The notes under the pieces were generated by a model. The model was not told the DNA's origin. It did no database searches and saw nothing but the letters and a program-made list of their open reading frames with translations. Both the position numbers and the translations under genes were made by a program. Positions 7,213 to 48,406 of a stretch of DNA of 54,594 nucleotides are shown in pieces. Each line of letters starts with the position of its first letter. The stretch's first letter is position 1. This stretch comes from Cochliopodium minus (Eukaryota > Discosea > Himatismenida > Cochliopodiidae), in assembly GCA_024220525.1 (NCBI GenBank), contig JAMYWO010000233.1:10522-65115 (forward strand), read 5' to 3'.

Positions 7213-9796
7213 ATGGAAGAAAATGCAGAATTTATTTTACCTTCAAATGAAACAAAATGTGGAGTGATATCCCTCAAAATAAATGGAGATATCTTATCTT
7301 CTCTTTCTTCATTTAGTAATATAACATTTAAAACAGATGGTGATCGTATTGTAATAGAAATAATTTCATTTTAAAAAAATATATTTTTTAATTTTTCTTA
7401 AATAAATACCCAATATACCTTGAATTAAAGACACTTAAAGTGGGAGATTCTGATTATGAGTTCAAAAAAGAAAGAATAGATATTACAAAACCTTCATATA
7501 TTTACCAACAAGAAGATAACACATTGAATAAGATTGGTATGATTCAACAAAAGTACGCATCTATAGGATATAAGCCATCTGAACAATATATAAAAAGACA
7601 AAAAGAATTGAATGATATAATTGAAACAAACAAAAAGAAAAGAGGGTATGAAAAAAAAGAATCCATAAAAACTACATATATAACAAAATTTTACATATAA
7701 AATGCTTTGCTTTCTTATATTCTCAATTAATTCTTCATATTCTTCAAATTTATACAATTTATTGTAGAATAAATAAAGATTCAAAGAAGGAGCCTTACAC
7801 ATTGAATGCCTTAAATTCAATAAGCAACAATATAAATAATAATAGCAACTCCATAAAGAAAGATATCAAACCCAAAAAGATAGGGATCAATCCACCAAAG
7901 ACATATTTGAAGCCAAATGTTCCATCTAAATCAAAAAATGAAGCAAAAGCAGAAATTTCAAATAAAAATAGCAGCATCCTCAATAACATCAACAATATTA
8001 CCAGCAATCTCCATAATACAAACAATAATACAGTCAAAGTGAAAGAAGTGATAGAGCCAGTGAAGGATCTCTTTGATGAGGATGATTTCTTGGAACTTGG
8101 CGAACCCAAAAAGAAAGAATCTCCACCCAAACCTAATCCTATTGTGAATAAGAATGTCACAGGGGATAATAATGATCACAACAACAATGTTGGGATGGAT
8201 AAAAAAAATAAACATCAACAAAACAAAAATAACACAGCTATTAATCATAATCATACCACCAATGGTAATAATAATAGTACTACTTCAACCAACAATAGTC
8301 ATAATAATATCAGCACAAATAATTATAATTATAACAACAATAATCACCAATCTAAAAACAAATATCTCAACAACATCACTCATACCACTACCACCCCTCC
8401 TAGCACTTCCACCACCAGCAATAGCAATGCAACACCCACCAATAATTTGACACCCACCAAACAAGAATCTAATAATAGCAGTCAAAGTAACACCAATACA
8501 AATAATGGAAATAATAATACTTCAAATAATAATAATAACAGTACCACCAATAAAAATAAAAATAATAACATCAACAGCAATAATAATAGTGTTGTGAACA
8601 CTAATAATAATGCAATATCTGATTTTTCATCATTGTTTGAGGATTCTTCTCAAAGCAGCCTCCCTCCTTCTCAAGACATTACTACTCCTTCCAGTTATTC
8701 CTACAAGAGCAGTTACAGCAACAACACTGGTTACAGCAGCAACCTCCACAACTCTCTTCCCAAAGAAAAGGTTTCCCCTCCCAAAGTGAACACCATACAA
8801 ATCAGTGACAACTCTTTGCAAATCAATGATGACAAAGACTCTTCTGTTAATAAAAACAAAAATAATAATAAAAATAATAATGATAATAAAAATAATAATA
8901 ATGATAAAAATGATAAAAATAATAATAAGAATAAAAATGATAATAAGAATAAAAATGATGGTGTTGATTATGATGTAGAAAATAAAAATAAACCTAATAA
9001 TAAAAACAATAAAGAAAATAACAGTAACAAAGATAACAGTAACAGAGATAACAGTAATAAAGATAACAGTAACAGAGACAATAACAAAAGTAATAAAGAT
9101 AACAGTGACAAAAATGGTAGTAGTAATAATAACAAGAATAATATCAAGAATGGAAAAGACAAGGAGAATGAGGACAGAGACAAAGAGACTCCAAAGTTGA
9201 AGATTAGGATAAAGCCTCCTTCTTCTTCTTCTTCTTCCAATCTCAAAGAAGAATCTCTTTTGAATGCAAACAAAAACAAGTCTCAACATCTTCCTTCCAG
9301 CCAAAGTCAGAGCAAGGACAAACACAAAAACGAGAACGGAAATGTTTCTTCGCTCTCCAAAAATTCAACGAAAGGAGTATACGACACCTTTGTTCCTTCC
9401 CCCACTTCTTCTACTCCCATCGATCACAAAAAAACTTCCGATAGGCTTTCAGTGAATAAAAGCAGTTCTCCTGAGGATCTTTCTTTCAATAAAAGTGATG
9501 TTCAACAAAAGTTGGATGAGTTCAATCGTTTGATGGAAGTTGGATTCAAGTTGCACAGGGAGTTGTCTGACAACTCGGAGTTTTTCAGTTCTTTGAAGAG
9601 GAAGTTTTCTTCTGTCCATGATCCCAATAAGAAGCAGGAAATCTTCACTCAGATCAAGGATGAGCATGATTCTCGCCGTGTTCGCATCCAGAACTCTTTG
9701 AAACGTTACAAGGAGAACTCTGTGCATTTGGAGAAACTGAGAATCGATATTCACCAACTTTCTGTCAAATTTCCCAATCATTTTGAGAAGAATTGA
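7213..9796 (+). CDS. ELL: ELL-type RNA polymerase II elongation factor
   Basis: Three exons, 7213-7350, 7431-7645 and 7768-9796, give 793 residues with phase closing at both introns. The N-terminal part (1 to about 120) has the ELL fold pattern: short beta strands followed by DNTLNKIGMIQQKYASIG and EQYIKRQKELNDIIE, which parallels LDCLGSIQDKI...YQKARQSM of animal ELL. Residues from about 690 on (LDEFNRLMEVGFKLHREL ... LEKLRIDIHQLSVKFPNH) look like the occludin/ELL C-terminal helical domain. The middle of over 500 residues is Asn, Ser, Thr, Lys low complexity. ELL suppresses Pol II pausing within super/little elongation complexes. Assignment is by pattern only, so a divergent relative remains possible. 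The first two exons are easy to miss because they lie upstream of the long open frame. Confidence 0.7.
8160..9180 (+). repeat. Asn/Ser/Lys codon-repeat tract in the ELL-like gene
   Basis: AAT/AAC-rich low-complexity coding DNA. It includes NNKN-type runs (8855-8990) and a short tandem array of KDNSNRDNSN units (about 9015-9090). It is in frame and within the gene. Confidence 0.85.
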
Positions 9797-35100: not shown

Positions 35101-37578
35101 TTTTGTTTTATTTTCTTTTTTTATTTTTATCCATTTTTATTTTTACATTATTTTCATTTTTTTTTAATCGTTTTTTTTTACATTTTTTATTTTACATTTT
35201 TATTTTTTATCCATTTTTATTTTTACATTATTTTTACTTTTATTTTTTTTTTAACTATAACAGGGTAATCGGAATAGGAGCATGTTTAGGAGGAAAAAAA
35301 GCAAAAGATGTGATGAGAGAGATGGAAGAGTTGAAGAAGGAAATAAACAGGGGATACAAAAGTGAGAGATTGGGAGGAATAGAAATCATGTGGATCAACG
35401 GCGAGGCCTCGCGCATCTTGTCGCAATCATCCGCCGAAGGGAAAAAAGGAGGGGGAGGCTCCGAAGGATTGAGCGAGTACAGCACGATGGAAAGAATGGC
35501 CATCTCATTGGGAAGAATGATCCAAAATCCACTCAGTGAAATCAGTAACTTGTGGAATGGAAGAGATGAGATCTTGTGTTTGCAGTTGCATCCTCTCCAA
35601 TCTTCTCTTCCTCCTCTCGCTCTCAAAAAGCAGCTGGAGAGAAAATTTGTGGAGGTGGTGAATCATGTGGGGGTGGACATCAATCAGCTTCTTCGCTTTC
35701 CTCATCACAGAAACAAAATGAAATTCATCAGTGGTTTGGGTGACAGAAAGCTCAATCAGCTTTTCATTTCTTTGAGTGGGAGTGGTGGCAAAATTTTGAA
35801 GAGGAGCGAGTTGGCACATTATTTGAGTAAAAACCTTTACCTCAACTCTGTTTCTTTCATCAAAATCGAGCCTCTTTATCTCCCTAAAAAAGATGTTCAT
35901 TCAGGAGATTGTTTGGACGTCACCCGCATCCATCCTACTCTTTATCCTCTCGCAAGAAGATTTGCTTATTATCTCGTCGAAGGGAAAATGGGTTTGCACG
36001 ATGAAGACAACACAAGTAACTCTAATGATATTTTTTCAGTCATTTTCCCCAAGTTGCTGAAGGATCCCATCAAATATTTCAAAAAGAATGATCCTCAGTT
36101 ATTTATCAACAAAGATTTCAACAACAAATTCACTTTGGAAGACATCCGTAACGAGTTTTCTCATCCCTTCCTCCTTTCCCGCCAGCTCTTTGTTCGTTTC
36201 CGCAACCCCACCGATTCCGAGCTCTTCACTTGGCTCACTGGTGAAAATGATATCACTCTTCACAGAGGTCAATCTGTTGATGCCAAAATCTGTTCCATTG
36301 GAAAAAATAAACAGGTAAAAAAAAAACTTTAATCTTTTTATTTTTGATTTATTTTTTTACATTTTCTTCATCATTTTTCTTCATTTTTTTTTTTTTTTCT
36401 AATATAAATTTATTTTTTGTATTTAAAAATAGGTAATGTGTTGGTTGCCAAATGGAATGCAAGGAGTAATTCCATTTATGTACATATCTGATCAAAGACC
36501 AGAATCACAAAGAGAAGTGGAGAAGATGATAAAGATAGGGATGAATGTGAAAGCGAGGGTTTTGGATGTCAAAAAATCAGATTTGAGAGTCAACTTGACC
36601 ACACGTGCTAAAGATTTGAAGAAAGACATTTGGGAAAGAGAATACATTAAAGAACACAAATTTGATCCCAATCTCATCCACGACAATTCTGCTAATAATG
36701 CACTTGATCTTCCTCCTCCCCCTCCCATTCCTCGTAGTTCTTCCATCCAACCAAACTCTACTCTTGGAGCTCTGTTGAAAGGAAGTGATTTTAACAGCGA
36801 TCTTCTCAACAATAATAACAATAATGACGATTTTTCGAGACCTCATGTTGTTTCTTCTTCTAAAAAACCCCTTCAAAACAGAATAGTGGATCATCCTCTT
36901 TTTAAAAACATTGATTATCAAAAAACGATCGAAGAGTTGGAAGGGAAGCCGATTGGTACTGTTGTCATTCGTCCTTCCAGTAAAGGAAACGATCATTTGA
37001 CCATTTCTTGGAGATTCACTGAAAAGATGATCGTACACGTTGATGTGAAAGAAGAAAAGAAATCAGAACTCACCCCTCTTTCCATTGGTAAACAACTCAT
37101 AATCGCTTCAAACTCTTATGAAGATTTGGATGAAATCTTGGCTAATTACTTAGATCCTATCGTTCTTTATTGTCAAGAAGTTTTTAATCACAGAAAGTTC
37201 AATCCTTCTCCTTCCAACATGATTGAAGATTTTCTTTTGAAAGAGAAAGAGAAAACTCCTTCTTCCATCCCTTACTGTATTGTCATCAACGAAAAACATC
37301 CTGGTTATTTTGATGTTTGTTATCTCCCTAACAAAAGAGTTCATCATGAATCTTTTTCTGTTCATCCTGAGGGTTATAAATTCAGAAAGAAAAACTTTAC
37401 AAATCCTTCCAAACTTTTGGATTATTTTAAGCATCATTACAAAGAAACTTCTCAACAATCCCTTTTGAAACATTCTACTCCCACTTCTGCTCTTCAAAAT
37501 AAAAGGCAATATCCTTCTTCTAATCCTTCAAATTCAAGACCAAGAGGAAATTATCCAAGAAATGAAGAATGGAATTAA
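32170..37578 (+). CDS. SPT6: Transcription elongation factor SPT6
   Basis: Eight exons: 32170-32185, 32255-32602, 32674-32807, 32881-33183, 33266-34036, 34337-35079, 35264-36314, 36433-37578. They give 1503 residues. The acidic N-terminus (SSEDDD, DSSEEDEAPE) is typical. Then come the HTH-like and core segments; a YqgF/RNaseH-like domain (VIGIGACLGGKKAKDV); HhH (RNKMKFISGLGDRKLNQLF); S1 (GENDITLHRGQSVDAKI ... MCWLPNGMQGVIPF); and the C-terminal tandem SH2 (HPLFKNIDYQKTIEELEGKP, GTVVIRPSSKGNDHLTISW). SPT6 is a histone chaperone that travels with Pol II and reads linker phosphorylation through the SH2 pair. The core contains an Asn/Asp-rich insertion at about 34690-34800. Exon 1 is just 16 nt. 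Confidence 0.93.
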
Positions 37579-37664: not shown

Positions 37665-40600
37665 TTATAAATCATTATAAATTTCATAATGAAGTTCTCC
37701 ATTAAAATCTGTTTTTCTTTTTAAACTAATTATACTTGAATCAATGATAGGAAAGCTTTTCAAAAAGGAGAAGTAATCTTTTGTTTGAGGATGGTTCAAT
37801 AATCTTTTCAAGTTTTCAGTTTGGTCAAGATTGTAAGTGTTAAAATAAAGATATTCTTGAACAATCAAAGGATTCAAATCCATTTCAATAAATTCTAATT
37901 CAACTAGTCTTTCAATAAATTCAAGATCAGGTTCTCCACCTGCATTTTCATTGATATATACATGTTGTGAAAAAGAATTTAAAAGGTTTTTCAGTTGTTC
38001 AACTCCAAAAACATTCTTTATGGTAATGAAAGGTCTATTCAATCTTTTGTTCTCGATTGGTTTGTTCAAAACTCTTTCTTTTTCGTGTCGAGGGGAATTA
38101 GAAACATCTTCATTAACATTCTTTTTTTCAGAAAAATGAATTTCTTGGGGTACAAGAGTTTGAAGGTAAGGAGAAAAAGAATAGGTAGGATTATCTTCTG
38201 AAAAAGGAGAATTATCATCTGAAAAAGAATTTGAAAAAAAGATCCACTCGTGAATGTTAAATTTTTCAATTCCATAAGTGATGGCGAGATCCAAAAACTT
38301 TACTGCTGCAAAGATGATTTGAACTTCTTTTTTGGGATTCACAAAAATTTTGATGAGTTCTGTCAAAACTAAAGGCCACAAGGAATCCAACTTTTGAGAA
38401 GAAAAACGAACAACAATGACAGAAAGAAGAAGGAAAACACTTTTGTAAACAACTGGTGATTTTGAAACTTTTAGAAACTCTACTATCTTTTCTATGATTG
38501 TTGTAAGTTTTGTTTCATACTGATTTGTTTTACCAGAGAAGATGATAAAGGCCAATCTCTTCAAGTTTTTAGCACGATTCAAGTTTTCTTGATCCTTTGA
38601 AGTAAACATTTGTGTGGGAAGACTTTTTTTGAGTTGTTTCATGTGCTCCACAAAAACAGTAGGAGAAGAAAGAAGGAGGATGTTGATTGATTTTTTCCAA
38701 ACAGAAATAGATTTGGGCTCCATACTGTTAAAGAAATCATTATCATTGAAAAAGATTTCAGTCAAATACTTTTTCCAAATTTTCTGGGTGTAATTAAAAC
38801 AAGAAATGTTCGAAAGAACAACAGAAGAAATGAAAGAATGTTCTTCTTGTCCACCAACATATTGTTCAATGATGTAATGCAAAGAAGAGGAGGGTTTTCT
38901 TTTGATGTAAGCGGGGAAGATGTAGTAGAAAAAGTTGGAAATAATGTTTGCTCCCTTTTCCTTTTCTTTTTCTTCATCGTAAATGGTATCAAAGAGAGAA
39001 GGGACAATGTTGCTTAATGCTTTTAATCCACTCGTTACAGTCATTGTTTCTATGAGCATTCCTTCTTCTTTTTTACTCATTTTCCTTTCTTTTTTTTCTG
39101 GAAGAGGTTTGGTGTCTTTGTTGCTGTTGTTTGTTGTGATTTCTTTAATTTTACTTTCTATATCAAACTTTTCTTTATTATTTGTGTTATTTATGTTGTT
39201 TGTGTTTTTGTGAGAAGAAAGTACAGGAGCAGAGGAAGAGGGAATATGGAGATGTTTGTTTTGAGTGTTGTTTGTTGGAAGAGTAGTGGAAGTAGAAGAG
39301 ATAGTAGAAGAAGTAGAAGAAGTAGAAGAAGTAGAAGAGATAGTAGAAGAAGTTGAAGAGATGGTGGAAGAATAGTATTTTTTTTCTTTTTTTTGGTTTT
39401 TATTTTCGGGTTTTTCATTTTTTTCGATAAAAACGTTGAGAACCATAGAGGTGGTCATCATTTTCATTTCTTCTTCAGTCATTTTCACTTCCTCTTCTTC
39501 TTCTTCTTCTTCACTTTCCTTGTTTTCGTCAGTATTTATGTTTTCTATGTTCTCTGTTATGATTGTATCTTCAGTTGTGTTCTCTGTTGTATTCTCTGTT
39601 ATAATTCCAGTGTTCTCTGTTATATTTTCTATTAGATTTGTATTTTCTGTTGTATTTTCTGTTAGATTTGTATTTTCTGTTGTAAAGTTTTCTGTTAGAT
39701 TTGTATTTTCTGAAATATTTTCGTCTGTGTTGGGGGAGGGGGGGTTGAGTTTACCAGAGTCAGAGTTACTTTGAGAAAGGAGAGAGTTGTTAGGAGGAGA
39801 AGAGGGAAGAGGGACATCAATATCAGTGAGAGATTCATTGTTTTCGTTGTAAATGAATTGGTTTAGTTGTGATTCTTTCCAGTTTTCATTATTTTCTGTG
39901 AAATAAATGTTTTCTTGTGTTTTGTTTTGTTTTTCTTTTTTTTGTTTCTCTTCCTCTTTTAATTTAATCTCCAAGAAAGGAGAAATGGGAGATCCTGATT
40001 CAAATGTTTCAGAAAAATTATCTTCTTTGTTCAGAACACTTTGATCTTCTTTATTAACATTACTACTATTGTCATTATTATCTCCTTTATTAACATTATT
40101 ACTGTTGTCATTATTATTACCATTATTAATATTATTATTATCACTATTGTTGATATTATTGTGAGAGTGGAGAGGGGAGAGAAAAGAAGAAAGTTGTTGA
40201 GAAGAAGAAGAAACAAGAAAAGAAGGAGAAGAACGGATATGAGAAATGATGTTTTTTTTAAAAGAAGAGGCTTCTTCCAAATCAAAGAAAGAAGCAGTGC
40301 AGATGTGGGTGAGAGAATCCACTATTTTTGTTACCACACTTCTCAGTTCTCCTTTTTGAGGAGGAGTGAGTTTGGAAAAAGGAGCTTTGTTGACAAAACA
40401 ATCCACAATGGTGATGAGAAAGACTTGAGAATAAGGATTTTTGGTATGTGTTGAAAAAGTTTTCAAAATTTCGTTCAATAAAGGCCAAGTATTGTAAAGA
40501 AAACCTTTCTCTTGCGTTCCATCTGTTGATTCATTAATGTAATTGGAGAGGAATTCGAGTAAGAAAAGTTCTTTGGGGAATTGAGGAGACAGGTCTTTTT

Positions 40601-43600
40601 GTTTTTGGGTGGAAGGATTGGAATTGAAAGAAAAAGAATTTGTAATTTCATTTAATGCATGAAATACAGAGAGATGATTGATATTGAGATTGTTCAATAT
40701 TTCTATCCATTTGCTTTCAATCTTTTCACAATATTTTTTGTATTTGGGAGATCCAATTTCATATTTAACAGAATCTTTTTGAAGAGAGTATTTTTGGAAA
40801 GAAAGATTAGGTTTCCAATAAAGAAGAAGAGAATTGAAAAAATGAAAAGGAAAAGAAGAAGAAAGGGGATCAAGGATTTGCAAGATTTGATCTTGAATCG
40901 CATACTTGTTGTGTACTTCATCTGAATTTGAAAAAACATTACTTATAACAGGAAGAGAAGAAGCAAAGTTTATTTGAGAGATGGAAGAAAGGTTTGTTTT
41001 TTTAGAAAGAGGTTGTTTTGATCTTATACTCTTCTGTGCTAAAAGAGAAATAGATTGTTTTCTTTGCAAAACGAGATTGCTTGTATTGTTATTTGTTTTG
41101 TTCTTATTTGGATCTCCCCACAATTTGAGCATCGCTTTGAGGATATAAGGAAAACTGTTTATGAGAGCATTTTTAGTTTTGGTGGAATAATCTATTTGAG
41201 AAGAAGATTCGTTGGATTGAGAATTAAAAGTAAACAAATTTCCTAATAACCAGGGTTTTTTTTCTTCAACATTGCTTGTTTCTTTTTTGGTGGAAATCAA
41301 AATACAGGTGTTTATGATCAAAAAGAGAGCTTTTAAAAGAACTACGATGTCTTTTGCAGAGATGCTGTCATAAATGTTTTCGTAGGAAAGAATGATATCA
41401 GAAAGACATTTGATGATTGGCTCCACTATGTTGAACATTTCGTAGTAAAGAAGAGGAAGAGAAGAAGTGATGAAATCCAACCAGTAAAAACGAATGTTTT
41501 GAGAAGGATATTGCAATAAACCAACAATGAGAGTTTGTAAAAACATTTGAGAAGAAATGATGGAAGTTCTGTTGTTTGTTTTTGTTTTTTCTTTTTTTTC
41601 TTCTTCTTTTGGTGAAAAATGATTGTAATTAGAATAAGAAGAATACAAATTGGGCATAGAAGTGTTGGTAGAAGAATTGGAGAAAGAAGAAGGATCCAGA
41701 AGAGATTGATTTTGACTATCCACAAAAATTATTGTTCTTAAAAGTTTTAAAAGTTGAACTTGAAGAACTAAATTTTGAGAAGAAACAGATTTAGCCAAGT
41801 TTTGCAAAACAATTTCTTGTGTTAATTCTCCTATCTCTGCTGCTTTTACATTATCAGTAATGTTTATAATCAAGAATTGCAAAAACTCGGTTGCTTCCGT
41901 TTGAACAACAGAATGTTCTTCATAAAATTCTCCGCTTTTTTCTTTTGTTTCTCCTTCCAAGAATCTCAAAGCACTGATCACCAACATGTCCAAATAATTA
42001 CGTTTTGGAAAAGTGTGATAAAGAAAAGTCTTTTGAGGAGCATTTTCTGTTTGACTTTTCTTTTTACTCTTTCTATCATTGATGTTTGTTTTTGTGGTGG
42101 TGGTTGAGGTAGTGTTGCTGGTACTGCTGGTAGGGGTATTTTTTTCATCGTGTTGCTTTGTTTTAGAAGAAAAGTCGTTGTGAAGATCAAGATGAGGAGA
42201 ATCAATGAAAGAAGAATGGATAGTATCAGAGATGGGAGGATTGATGAAAGAGAGGATGAATTTGGAAGGAGATTGTTCAACAACGTATTTCATGAAAAGA
42301 CGAAAATCACAATCAATGATGGAGATTAGAATTTTGAAAAGATATCTTATTCTGCTCGTGTTGTAAGAAGTAAGAAAAGAACTGTCGGAAAAAGAAGAAA
42401 AGAGAGAAGTATCCAAAAGTTCTTCTAAAAGAGGATCAAGCAAACGATCAATTTTAGAAATAGACTCTGCCAACCAACTTCTGCCAGCCAATCTAAGAGA
42501 AGGTTGTTCACTGTTTAAAGAATCCAACATAAGAAAAACACTCTTTGAAAAAGGTTTGTATCCATGACCCAGTTCTCCTGTCAATCTCCATAGTAAAGAA
42601 AATTTGAGGTGAGATTCTTCTCTTTTGGAAAGGGAAGTGGAATTCATCATTTCTGTTAACACTTTTATTGCACTTGTTTTGTTTATGTCACTCATTTTGA
42701 TGAAAAGTTCTGCTACTTGGTAATGCACTACTGCCATTTTTCCATCCAACATCTCCAGTATCTTTCTTCCTATCTTTTCCATTTCTTCTTCGTTTTTTAT
42801 TACATCCCTCTTTTCTTTTTCTGTTAATCCCAATGTTTCTTTTTTTGGTTTTATTAGTGATAGAAATGTTCTGATGGAAATGACAGACACAATGTTGTTT
42901 GTTGACTAAATGAATTTATTTTCAAACAATTAATTAAAAGAAATAAAATCATTTTTTTAAATTTAAAAAAGAGTTTTACAGTGCAAGATTGAAGTAAAAC
43001 AGAAAACCACTGAGGAAGAGGTGTAGGTTCTTCTAATAAATCTTCTTTTTCACTTATTTCTTCATTTTCTTTTATGTCGATGGAATTAGAACGAGTGTGA
43101 CTGTGAATGTGAGAAGAATGTTTTACCTCTTCTCTAAAAGTGTTGGGAGTGCGAAGAAGGTTGGGGGAAGAGGGATTAGAAAAAGATTCAGAAAGAGAAA
43201 GGGAGGAGTTGGAATAAGAATTTGAACGATGATGTGTGTTTCCCTGTTGAAGAGTGCTTGCAAGAGAAGAGTTGATGGGTATTTCAAAAAAAGAATGAAC
43301 TGTTAAAAGCATATTTGAAACAACATCAAATGAATCAAACAAATTTGAAATGTTTTCAATCTTTTTGTTGTTATTATATGTCAAATTAGAAGATGTGTTG
43401 ATGTTATTTGAAGAGGGATTCTCTATTTTTCTATTGTTATTATTTGTATTCATTGTTGAAGTGGTAAAAGAGGTAGATGAGATAAAAGAGGTAAAAGAGG
43501 TAGATGAAGTGGAGGTGGATGAAGTAGAGGTGGATGAAGTAGAAGGAGGAGTATTGATATTATCATTGTTAGTTTCTGTGGTATTTAGAGAGGAAGGAGG

Positions 43601-46719: not shown

Positions 46720-47113
46720 ATGTCACAAGATTTGGAGAAATTTATCACAAAAGAAGGAAGATTAAAATGTTGGAAAGCAAGGTGATAAAATGAGAGATTT
46801 AATTGCAAAACCATTATTAATCAACTTCAAAATAAAAATTATAAGAGATATGGTACTATATTTTTAAAGATAGAATCAAAATGTAAAATTTTTCTTTTTT
46901 CAAATAAGATGAATGAATGTATCAAAAATAATAGATCGGATAAAAAAGAATGCACAAAATATATTGAAGGAATCTCCCAATTTTGTCCAAGTTCTTGGGT
47001 AGATCAATATCTATTTAGGGTAAATTTTTTTTATTCTTTCAATCAAAAATAAGAAAATAATAAAATTAAAGATCACAACTGAAAATGTACACATTACTCG
47101 TTTCCATTCATAA
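46720..47113 (+). CDS. COA6-like cytochrome c oxidase assembly factor, copy A
   Basis: Four exons: 46720-46781, 46846-46852 (7 nt), 46909-47019, 47072-47113. They give 73 residues. The paired motif CWKARDMMNEC (CX9C) and CTKYIEGISQFC (CX10C) followed by PSSWVDQYL matches the COA6 pattern (CWGARDEYWKC ... CX10C PQQWIKYF). COA6 acts in the mitochondrial intermembrane space in copper delivery to COX2; import via the Mia40 disulfide relay is expected. The Tyr-Trp of the usual ARDEYWKC is replaced by Met-Asn, so this copy is more divergent than copy B. The fourth exon is inferred from consistent phase with copy B. Confidence 0.72.
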
Positions 47114-47241
47114 ATTTTCAAGAAAACTAAAATTCAGAAATTCAAATAAATTTGTTAATTATATAGAAATATTTTGTTATGTCAATAATATTCCATCATT
47201 TTGAGTATCCAAATTAAAAAAAAAAAAAATTGGCTTGATTG

Positions 47242-47690
47242 ATGAGTAATAATCTGCAAAAAGTTAGTTCCAAAGAAGGAAGAGTCAAATGTTGGAAAGC
47301 AAGGTGATTAGAATTGGATATTTTTGGATATTTTAGAATATTATTTTGAAAAAAAAGAGATAGGGTTTGTTTTTTTTAATATAAAAAATTGAAAAATGAT
47401 TAAAAAATGTAAAAAAGTTTTTTTACTGTTTGGATCACAACAAATTTGTTGATCAAGAAAGAGAATGCAGAAAGTATCTCGACGAATTAAGTGAGTAAGA
47501 AGTCTTTGTTTTTTAAAAAGTCTTTTAAAACAATTTTGAAAGAGTTTGTCCAAAAGCTTGGGTTAATCATTTCCTTTTGAAGGTAATTACACTAAAACAT
47601 AATTTTATAATAAAATTGACTTGTTTTTTTGAAATAAAGAGGGCAAGTGAAGTCAAAAGAAAATTGGAGCAAAGAGAAGAAGATGATTAA
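47242..47690 (+). CDS. COA6: COA6-like cytochrome c oxidase assembly factor, copy B
   Basis: Five exons: 47242-47303, 47358-47364 (7 nt), 47418-47494, 47543-47582, 47640-47690. They give 78 residues in phase. The protein reads RVKCWKARDRFFYCLDHN, then CRKYLDELSEVC PKAWVNHFLLKRASEVKRKLE. This reproduces COA6 almost position by position (CX9C, CX10C, W-x3-F, then a charged helix). Exon 1 has exactly the same length (62 nt) and phase as copy A, and both have the 7-nt exon that encodes the end of ARD. The copies are tandem with 128 bp between them. The presence of COA6 implies a copper-containing cytochrome oxidase, hence aerobic mitochondria. Confidence 0.85.
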
Positions 47691-47853: not shown

Positions 47854-48406
47854 ATGTCTGAAAAAAAAGAGAAGAAAGATAGAAAGAGAAAAAAATCCAA
47901 AAAAGAGGAGAAAGGGACTGAAGTAGTAAAGGAAGAGAAAAAACCAAAAATTGAAGAAGTAAGAGAAGATGAGATTTTGTTAATTGCAACACCATTGGCT
48001 GATGAAAAAGAAACAAAAGATATTTTAGAGTTAACTACTTTGGCAACAAAAGCAAAATCAATTAGAAGAGGAGTAAAAGAAGTAAATAAATATTTGAGAA
48101 AAGGAGAAAAAGGGTAGAAAATATTAAAAAAAAAATTTTTTTTTTTTTTTTTTTTTAAAAATTCCTATAATTTTATTAATTTTTTGATCCAGAATCGCAA
48201 TTATTGCTGGAAATGTAAGTCCGGAAGATGTTATTTCTCATTTGCCAGTATTGTGTGAAGAATTGAATGTACCATATATTTATATTCCCTCCAAAGAAAA
48301 TCTTGGATTGGCTGCACAAACAAAAAGACCAACATCTGTTGTATTGATAAAACAAAATGAAACAATTGATAAACTCTATAAAAAATGTTCAAAATTCATC
48401 AAATAA
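47854..48406 (+). CDS. NHP2: H/ACA snoRNP protein NHP2 (L7Ae family)
   Basis: Exons 47854-48113 and 48193-48406 give 157 residues. A basic Lys/Glu N-terminal tail of about 45 residues is followed by an L7Ae/L30e domain: ATKAKSIRRGVKEVNKYLRKG, GIAIIAGNVSPEDVISHLPV, CEELNVPYIYIPSKENLG and ALAQ-like GLAAQTKRPTSVVLI. The VSPEDVISHLPVLCEE stretch is characteristic of Nhp2 rather than Snu13 or ribosomal eL8/eL30. Nhp2 works with dyskerin, Nop10 and Gar1 in pseudouridylation and telomerase RNP. The intron (48114-48192) has a donor GTAGAA and a long T run. Confidence 0.92.

Follow-up and report, generated by a model that had tools for sequence, protein, structure and literature searches.

Tiny exons as such are already known, and the exon described here belongs to that class. 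Neuronal microexons are mostly regulated and frame-preserving, with lengths that are multiples of three. In plants, microexons of 1-15 nt have been described, and for APC11 and VPS55, exons of 1 nt are backed by RNA-seq and RT-PCR (PMC8831610). Animal microexons, including those associated with PRP-40 in C. elegans (PMC8378409) and those of vertebrate neurons, lie below the ordinary size for exon definition; in C. elegans, an unusually short flanking intron releases a microexon from its dependence on PRP-40, and intron definition is offered in the same paper as a speculative model of its authors. A module for exons of 3-15 nt was included in a study of ichthyosporeans (PMC4739763). Among the literature matches listed for protists, amoebae and single-celled eukaryotes, no protist microexon survey appeared in the titles and abstract openings, and the words 'protist' and 'unicellular' are absent from a review of non-canonical splicing (PMC13149111). 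Likewise, our searches found no literature uniting COA6 with a microexon.

In this report, we analyze a stretch of 54,594 nt (the window) from the assembly of Cochliopodium minus (44.65 Mb, 598 contigs), in which a tandem pair of genes of the COX6B/COA6 family shares a 7-nt candidate exon. Like the plant microexons, these are tiny coding exons that are conserved within a family and of a kind often overlooked by annotation, and like the animal ones they fall below ordinary exon-definition size; they differ from the plant cases in lineage and genes, and in that the latter are RNA-backed (PMC8831610) whereas the COA6 exons are predicted from sequence. They stand apart from the neuronal type, since 7 nt is not a multiple of three and the exon is essential for the frame; with these two properties it is probably constitutive, unlike the neuronal ones. 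A sequence-only reading of this DNA had placed 7 nt near the lower limit for splicing, which is wrong, because validated 1-nt exons are known from plant APC11 and VPS55 (PMC8831610). We estimate a probability of roughly 90% for the joint reading, in which a COA6-type pair carries a constitutive, frame-essential 7-nt exon that would be spliced by intron definition, would predate the duplication and would be part of a genome-wide habit.

The COA6 locus and its gene models

The window has a G+C content of ~26%, and the pair occupies positions 46720-47690 of the forward strand, with copy 1 starting at 46720 and copy 2 at 47242-47690. The predicted structures are as follows.

46720..46781, + strand: copy 1 exon 1, 62 nt, ending in phase 2 within the Arg codon of ARD
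46782..46845, + strand: copy 1 intron 1, 64 nt, phase 2
46846..46852, + strand: copy 1 microexon AGATATG, 7 nt, between ag and gt
46853..46908, + strand: copy 1 intron 2, 56 nt, phase 0
46909..47019, + strand: copy 1 exon 3, 111 nt, with cysteines 2, 3 and 4 and the Pfam COX6B match
47072..47113, + strand: copy 1 putative last exon, an uncertain guess from the gene-finder parse, with no recognisable homology
47242..47303, + strand: copy 2 exon 1, 62 nt, ending in phase 2, with 46/62 bases as in copy 1
47304..47357, + strand: copy 2 intron 1, 54 nt, phase 2
47358..47364, + strand: copy 2 microexon AGATAGG, 7 nt, between ag and gt
47365..47417, + strand: copy 2 intron 2, 53 nt, phase 0, with a weak donor (gtttgt) and a weak acceptor
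47418..47494, + strand: copy 2 exon 3, 77 nt
47495..47542, + strand: copy 2 intron 3, 48 nt, phase 2, missing in copy 1
47543..47582, + strand: copy 2 exon 4, 40 nt, with cysteine 4
47583..47639, + strand: copy 2 intron 4, the last intron, 57 nt, phase 0
47640..47690, + strand: copy 2 exon 5, containing the stop codon

The joined predicted products are KCWKARDMMNEC (copy 1) and KCWKARDRFFYC (copy 2), and C-x9-C is present in both. Elsewhere in the window, a two-exon L7Ae/NHP2-like gene, presumably NHP2, lies at 47854-48406 (PF01248, 85.6 bits; intron 48114-48192), and 36436-37578 and 37665-42890 hold a protein with a tandem-SH2 domain (PF14633), which we take to be SPT6-like, and a DOP1-family protein.

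The 7-nt path is the one that restores the four-cysteine pattern

Exon 1 of either copy breaks off two bases into the Arg codon of CWKAR, and the frame downstream meets a stop immediately; retention of intron 1 in copy 1 reads AGG TGA. The 7-nt exon finishes Arg-Asp and adds one further codon, so that exon 3 is entered in phase 0. The sequence-only reading had proposed just this, namely an open frame that breaks after KCWKA(R) and is brought back into phase by 7 nt between AG and GT, with an exon 1 of 62 nt and a following phase-0 intron in each gene, and its segments, lengths and phases were all recovered here, with the same layout in both copies. Both segments are microexons in the sense of being at most 15 nt long, bounded by AG and GT and needed for the frame.

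Splice paths were enumerated between the start codon and the codon of the third cysteine, each with one or two introns 30-260 nt long and with GT or GC accepted at the first donor. Copy 1 has 35 open paths and copy 2 has 63, and the pattern C-x9-C-x(10-12)-C-x10-C was restored by exactly one path in each set, the 7-nt path. Against the human COA6 chain, this path was also the top-scoring one, at 87 (next 65) in copy 1 and 106 (next 88) in copy 2. Against the genome's own COX6B it was best in copy 1 (64, next 59), and in copy 2 another path scored 60 versus 59. The Pfam COX6B match reached 42.6 bits with the microexon in copy 1 as against 26.6, 26.8 and 21.3 bits for the three rival joins tested, and 47.9 bits in copy 2 as against 36.0, 30.9 and 23.8 for its three; these six joins fall 11.9 to 24.1 bits short of the microexon path. 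Chance was gauged by dinucleotide-shuffling the sequence that separates exon 1 from exon 3, with introns required to be 35 nt or longer: an in-frame exon of 7 nt that encodes RD arose in 16 of 20,000 shuffles for copy 1 and 21 of 20,000 for copy 2, and any in-frame internal exon starting with RD in 82 and 103 of 20,000, respectively. We thus consider the 7-nt exon to be confirmed at the sequence level in both predicted gene structures.

The alternative that survives best joins exon 1 to a site inside exon 3 (47462 in copy 2, 46935 in copy 1), skipping the microexon and giving a shorter three-cysteine product either alone or as a minor isoform. This join keeps the frame, since a phase-2 donor ending in AG can be joined to any in-frame AGA codon, and the one to 47462 was the choice of the unguided gene finder; however, cysteine 2 is lost, the Pfam scores fall below the curated cut-off of 26, at 23.8 bits in copy 2 and 21.3 in copy 1, and the segment skipped in copy 2 aligns to the COA6 chain (CLDHN versus CLDEN), which makes this alternative very improbable. 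For copy 1, a single intron at 46782-46847 could also be followed by reading on from 46848 into exon 3, with an insertion that yields C-x27-C. The path is open, its sites are canonical and its acceptor outscores that of the microexon (2.17 versus 1.75), but it breaks the CX9C spacing and matches COX6B at 26.8 rather than 42.6 bits, and copy 2 offers no counterpart, since no listed path that keeps CW reaches cysteine 2 by a single GT-AG intron; we judge this join to be more improbable still. Decay of one or both copies into pseudogenes spliced without consistency, to which a dN/dS of only ~0.5, the copy 1 end without recognisable homology and the weak splice sites could be ascribed, is just as hard to credit, given that the four cysteines, CW.ARD and CP..W are intact in both copies, that the 7-nt exon with its AG and GT is retained in both despite intron divergence, and that no other COA6 copy was seen among the best genome-wide candidates scored.

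Both genes are predicted to encode COA6-type proteins

COA6 acts in the intermembrane space, with a copper/thiol function in COX2 assembly. Both predicted products match PF02297 (COX6B) above the curated cut-off of 26, at the 42.6 and 47.9 bits already given, and show the C-x9-C...C-x10-C pattern, in which none of the four cysteines has been lost; CW.ARD and CP..W are retained as well. In searches against solved structures, three COA6 chains came first for copy 2 (E 1.5e-7 to 1.7e-5), followed by ATPEG5 (7.8e-5), and no COX6B chain appeared at E up to 1. For copy 1, COA6 came first at 8.7e-5 with ATPEG5 close behind at 1.8e-4, and the best COX12 chain at 0.28. These structure-chain searches place both copies with COA6 rather than COX6B, and together with the Pfam scores they bear out the COA6 identity proposed earlier. 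The predicted products resemble PDB 6NL3 and 6PCE, which we take to be human COA6, in the twin CX9C motif with its CW.ARD...C and CP..W pattern; both copies are divergent from them, and the spacing between cysteines 2 and 3 in copy 2 is 12 residues rather than 10. Sequence comparison thus supports the prediction that both genes encode a COA6-type twin-CX9C mitochondrial protein.

The COX6B gene of the same genome (G000:C321) belongs to the same Pfam family, PF02297, but its CX9C region lies in one unbroken frame without a microexon; the microexon is therefore not a feature of the whole family. Searched genome-wide at E up to 10, the copy 2 protein produced six matches to exons, every one of them in these two genes. 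The genome-wide family search had three matches, to exon 3 of copy 1, to the C321 COX6B gene and, weakly, to a site on C111; no further COA6 copy was reported among the best candidates scored in these whole-genome searches. Among viral contigs, seven pattern matches were obtained, and none was confirmed as a relative.

The exon most likely predates the tandem duplication

The two copies share 46/62 bases of exon 1 and 6/7 bases of the microexon, whereas the cores of their introns are no more alike than many shuffles, which aligned as well or better in 193 (intron 1) and 60 (intron 2) of 500 cases. Over 60 codons, dN is 0.41 and dS 0.78. Because the introns have diverged while exon 1 and the microexon have been retained, we infer that the 7-nt exon is most likely older than the tandem duplication; this origin had been suggested from the letters of the two genes, and the shared phases, together with the contrast between the diverged introns and the well-matched microexon, speak in its favor. 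The additional phase-2 intron of copy 2 (47495-47542), which copy 1 lacks, indicates that intron gain or loss went on after the duplication.

Splice sites and gene-finder behavior

A splice-site profile was built from 63 introns chosen for low G+C; this set replaced earlier training sets, which were dropped for contamination with coding DNA. Among the 63 introns, which were selected with the same kind of profile and thus form a yardstick that is not independent, the donors of introns 1 and 2 stand at the 57th and 48th percentiles in copy 1 and the 48th and 19th (gtttgt) in copy 2, and the acceptors at the 3rd and 27th in copy 1 and the 14th and 0th in copy 2, the intron 2 acceptor of copy 2 scoring below all 63. 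The donor of intron 1 in copy 1 (aag, then gtgata) outscores 97% of all GT dinucleotides in the window. The sites flanking the microexons are, by this profile, ordinary to weak. Donors in the genome sample follow the consensus GTAAAA/GTAAAT, and G is scarce at +5, though the 5' end of the U1 RNA is canonical.

We trained a gene finder that tolerated exons as short as 1 nt and introns of up to 260 nt. Its training DNA, 205 kb, consisted of the window and of 200 kb of contigs C1 and C2 from which N stretches had been removed, with 52 genes scoring above 20 and 340 introns. The gene finder chose the microexon in neither COA6 copy and preferred other joins, and at the normal gene penalty it predicted no gene at the COA6 locus, in agreement with the earlier expectation that standard gene finders would miss such exons.

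Tiny exons elsewhere in the genome

Besides the window, we examined 200 kb of contigs C1 and C2, partly N. In an RCC1-like gene on contig C2 (L017:8558-9262), two exons of 10 nt (8688-8697) and 14 nt (8756-8769) jointly give GDNRYGQLG, and a 9-nt exon (L017:9161-9169) encodes GQL of another repeat. For the first interval, six paths are open when up to three introns are allowed, and exactly one of them ends in GxNxxGQLG; with up to two introns neither of the two open paths contains this motif; for the 9-nt exon, one of ten open paths with up to two introns ends in it. None of 300 shuffles did so in either case. The donor ahead of the 10-nt exon is weak (-0.32). With the small exons included, the whole protein rose from 151.9 to 185.5 bits for RCC1 and from 226.9 to 241.6 for WD40_RLD, and fell from 169.2 to 164.7 for RCC1_2 and from 31.7 to 23.6 for Alsin_RLD; the version scored also includes a false 15-nt exon, and the claim for the 10-, 14- and 9-nt exons rests on the path enumeration.

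In a Rab-type cluster on C1, the switch-II block AGQERF lies on a 20-nt exon, and over the window and the 200 kb of C1 and C2 stretches, GQE[KR] sits in 20 nt between AG and GT at seven of nine sites; the remaining two, on C2, are not Rab-like in appearance. The upstream WDT/FDT block (LQLWDT) is carried by an 18-nt exon at five of the six such sites with a recognised block, and at the sixth AG is absent and the sequence reads as one longer exon. The 20-nt exons start as follows.

G000:C1 1054, 23260, 24844, 31005, 32569, 35793 and 39356: 5' ends of the 20-nt Rab exons (loci L007, L009 and L010)

With further tiny exons recognised by motif in a few other genes, the COA6 microexon looks real rather than a lone oddity, and the genome would appear to have a habit of setting introns close together, so that several gene families have exons of 7-20 nt.

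Other candidates were rejected. An 8-nt exon in a RhoGEF gene had raised the Pfam score misleadingly (135.6 versus 109.1 bits), and a single 389-nt intron giving QRIPRY fits better; the false exon arose because of the 260-nt intron limit of the gene finder. In the RCC1-like gene, 15 nt that had been proposed as an exon fit better as part of a 42-nt one. Eighteen genes had gene-finder exons of at most 15 nt, and a verdict was reached for two of them, these RhoGEF-like and RCC1-like genes. Unguided gene finding, which proposed false small exons and missed those of COA6, was thus discarded as a microexon census, and because of the false calls we claim no genome-wide count.

As separate observations, six RhoGEF loci (L038-L043) were compared by eye, and five have an intron in or beside the QR..RY motif at slightly differing positions, the sixth (L040) reading through it. 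The genome (G000) shows large expansions, with 152 RhoGEF matches, 53 actin-family matches and at least 150 RCC1-repeat matches, the last from the best 150 of 1306 candidates; all of these are exon pieces, not genes. Among solved actin chains, 4efh and 1nlv (Acanthamoeba and Dictyostelium) head the matches, and a human gamma actin follows within 4 bits (823.8, 820.5 and 820.2), too narrow a margin to indicate affinity.

A proposed mechanism and its implications

We propose that the splice sites pair across the short introns that flank each microexon (64 and 56 nt in copy 1, 54 and 53 nt in copy 2), so that the exon itself need not be bridged. The short introns would be recognised as units, without simultaneous binding of both ends of the tiny exon, and the two introns would be excised one after another. 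The shortness of the flanking introns, on whose length the argument is based, suggests intron-definition splicing. Between cysteines 1 and 2, the 7 nt would complete the Arg codon with its third base and add Asp and one variable codon; skipping of the microexon or retention of intron 1 would lead to a frameshift or a stop, and inclusion alone would give the four-cysteine hairpin. The frameshift caused by skipping makes constitutive inclusion probable. As for the machinery, the genome holds a U1 RNA with a canonical 5' end, AUACUUACCUG, although its 36.7 bits fall short of the 69.5 set as cut-off by Rfam, as well as a PRP40-like gene in which WW and FF each match twice.

For the organism, a broader reading has about an even chance of being right, namely that this probably unicellular eukaryote has an unusual wealth of constitutive microexons, 7-20 nt long, which are kept across the paralogous COA6 and Rab families and occur in others such as RCC1, and that it splices them by pure intron definition. 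Since very small exons elude ordinary gene finders, protein annotation in this genome is probably faulty in places. If the broader reading is true, many more microexons would await discovery, systematically overlooked by annotation. The COA6 pair itself offers a clean natural case, in which paralogues retain a 7-nt frame-essential exon amid diverged introns, and the genome may serve as a testbed for splicing with neighboring sites only a few bases apart.
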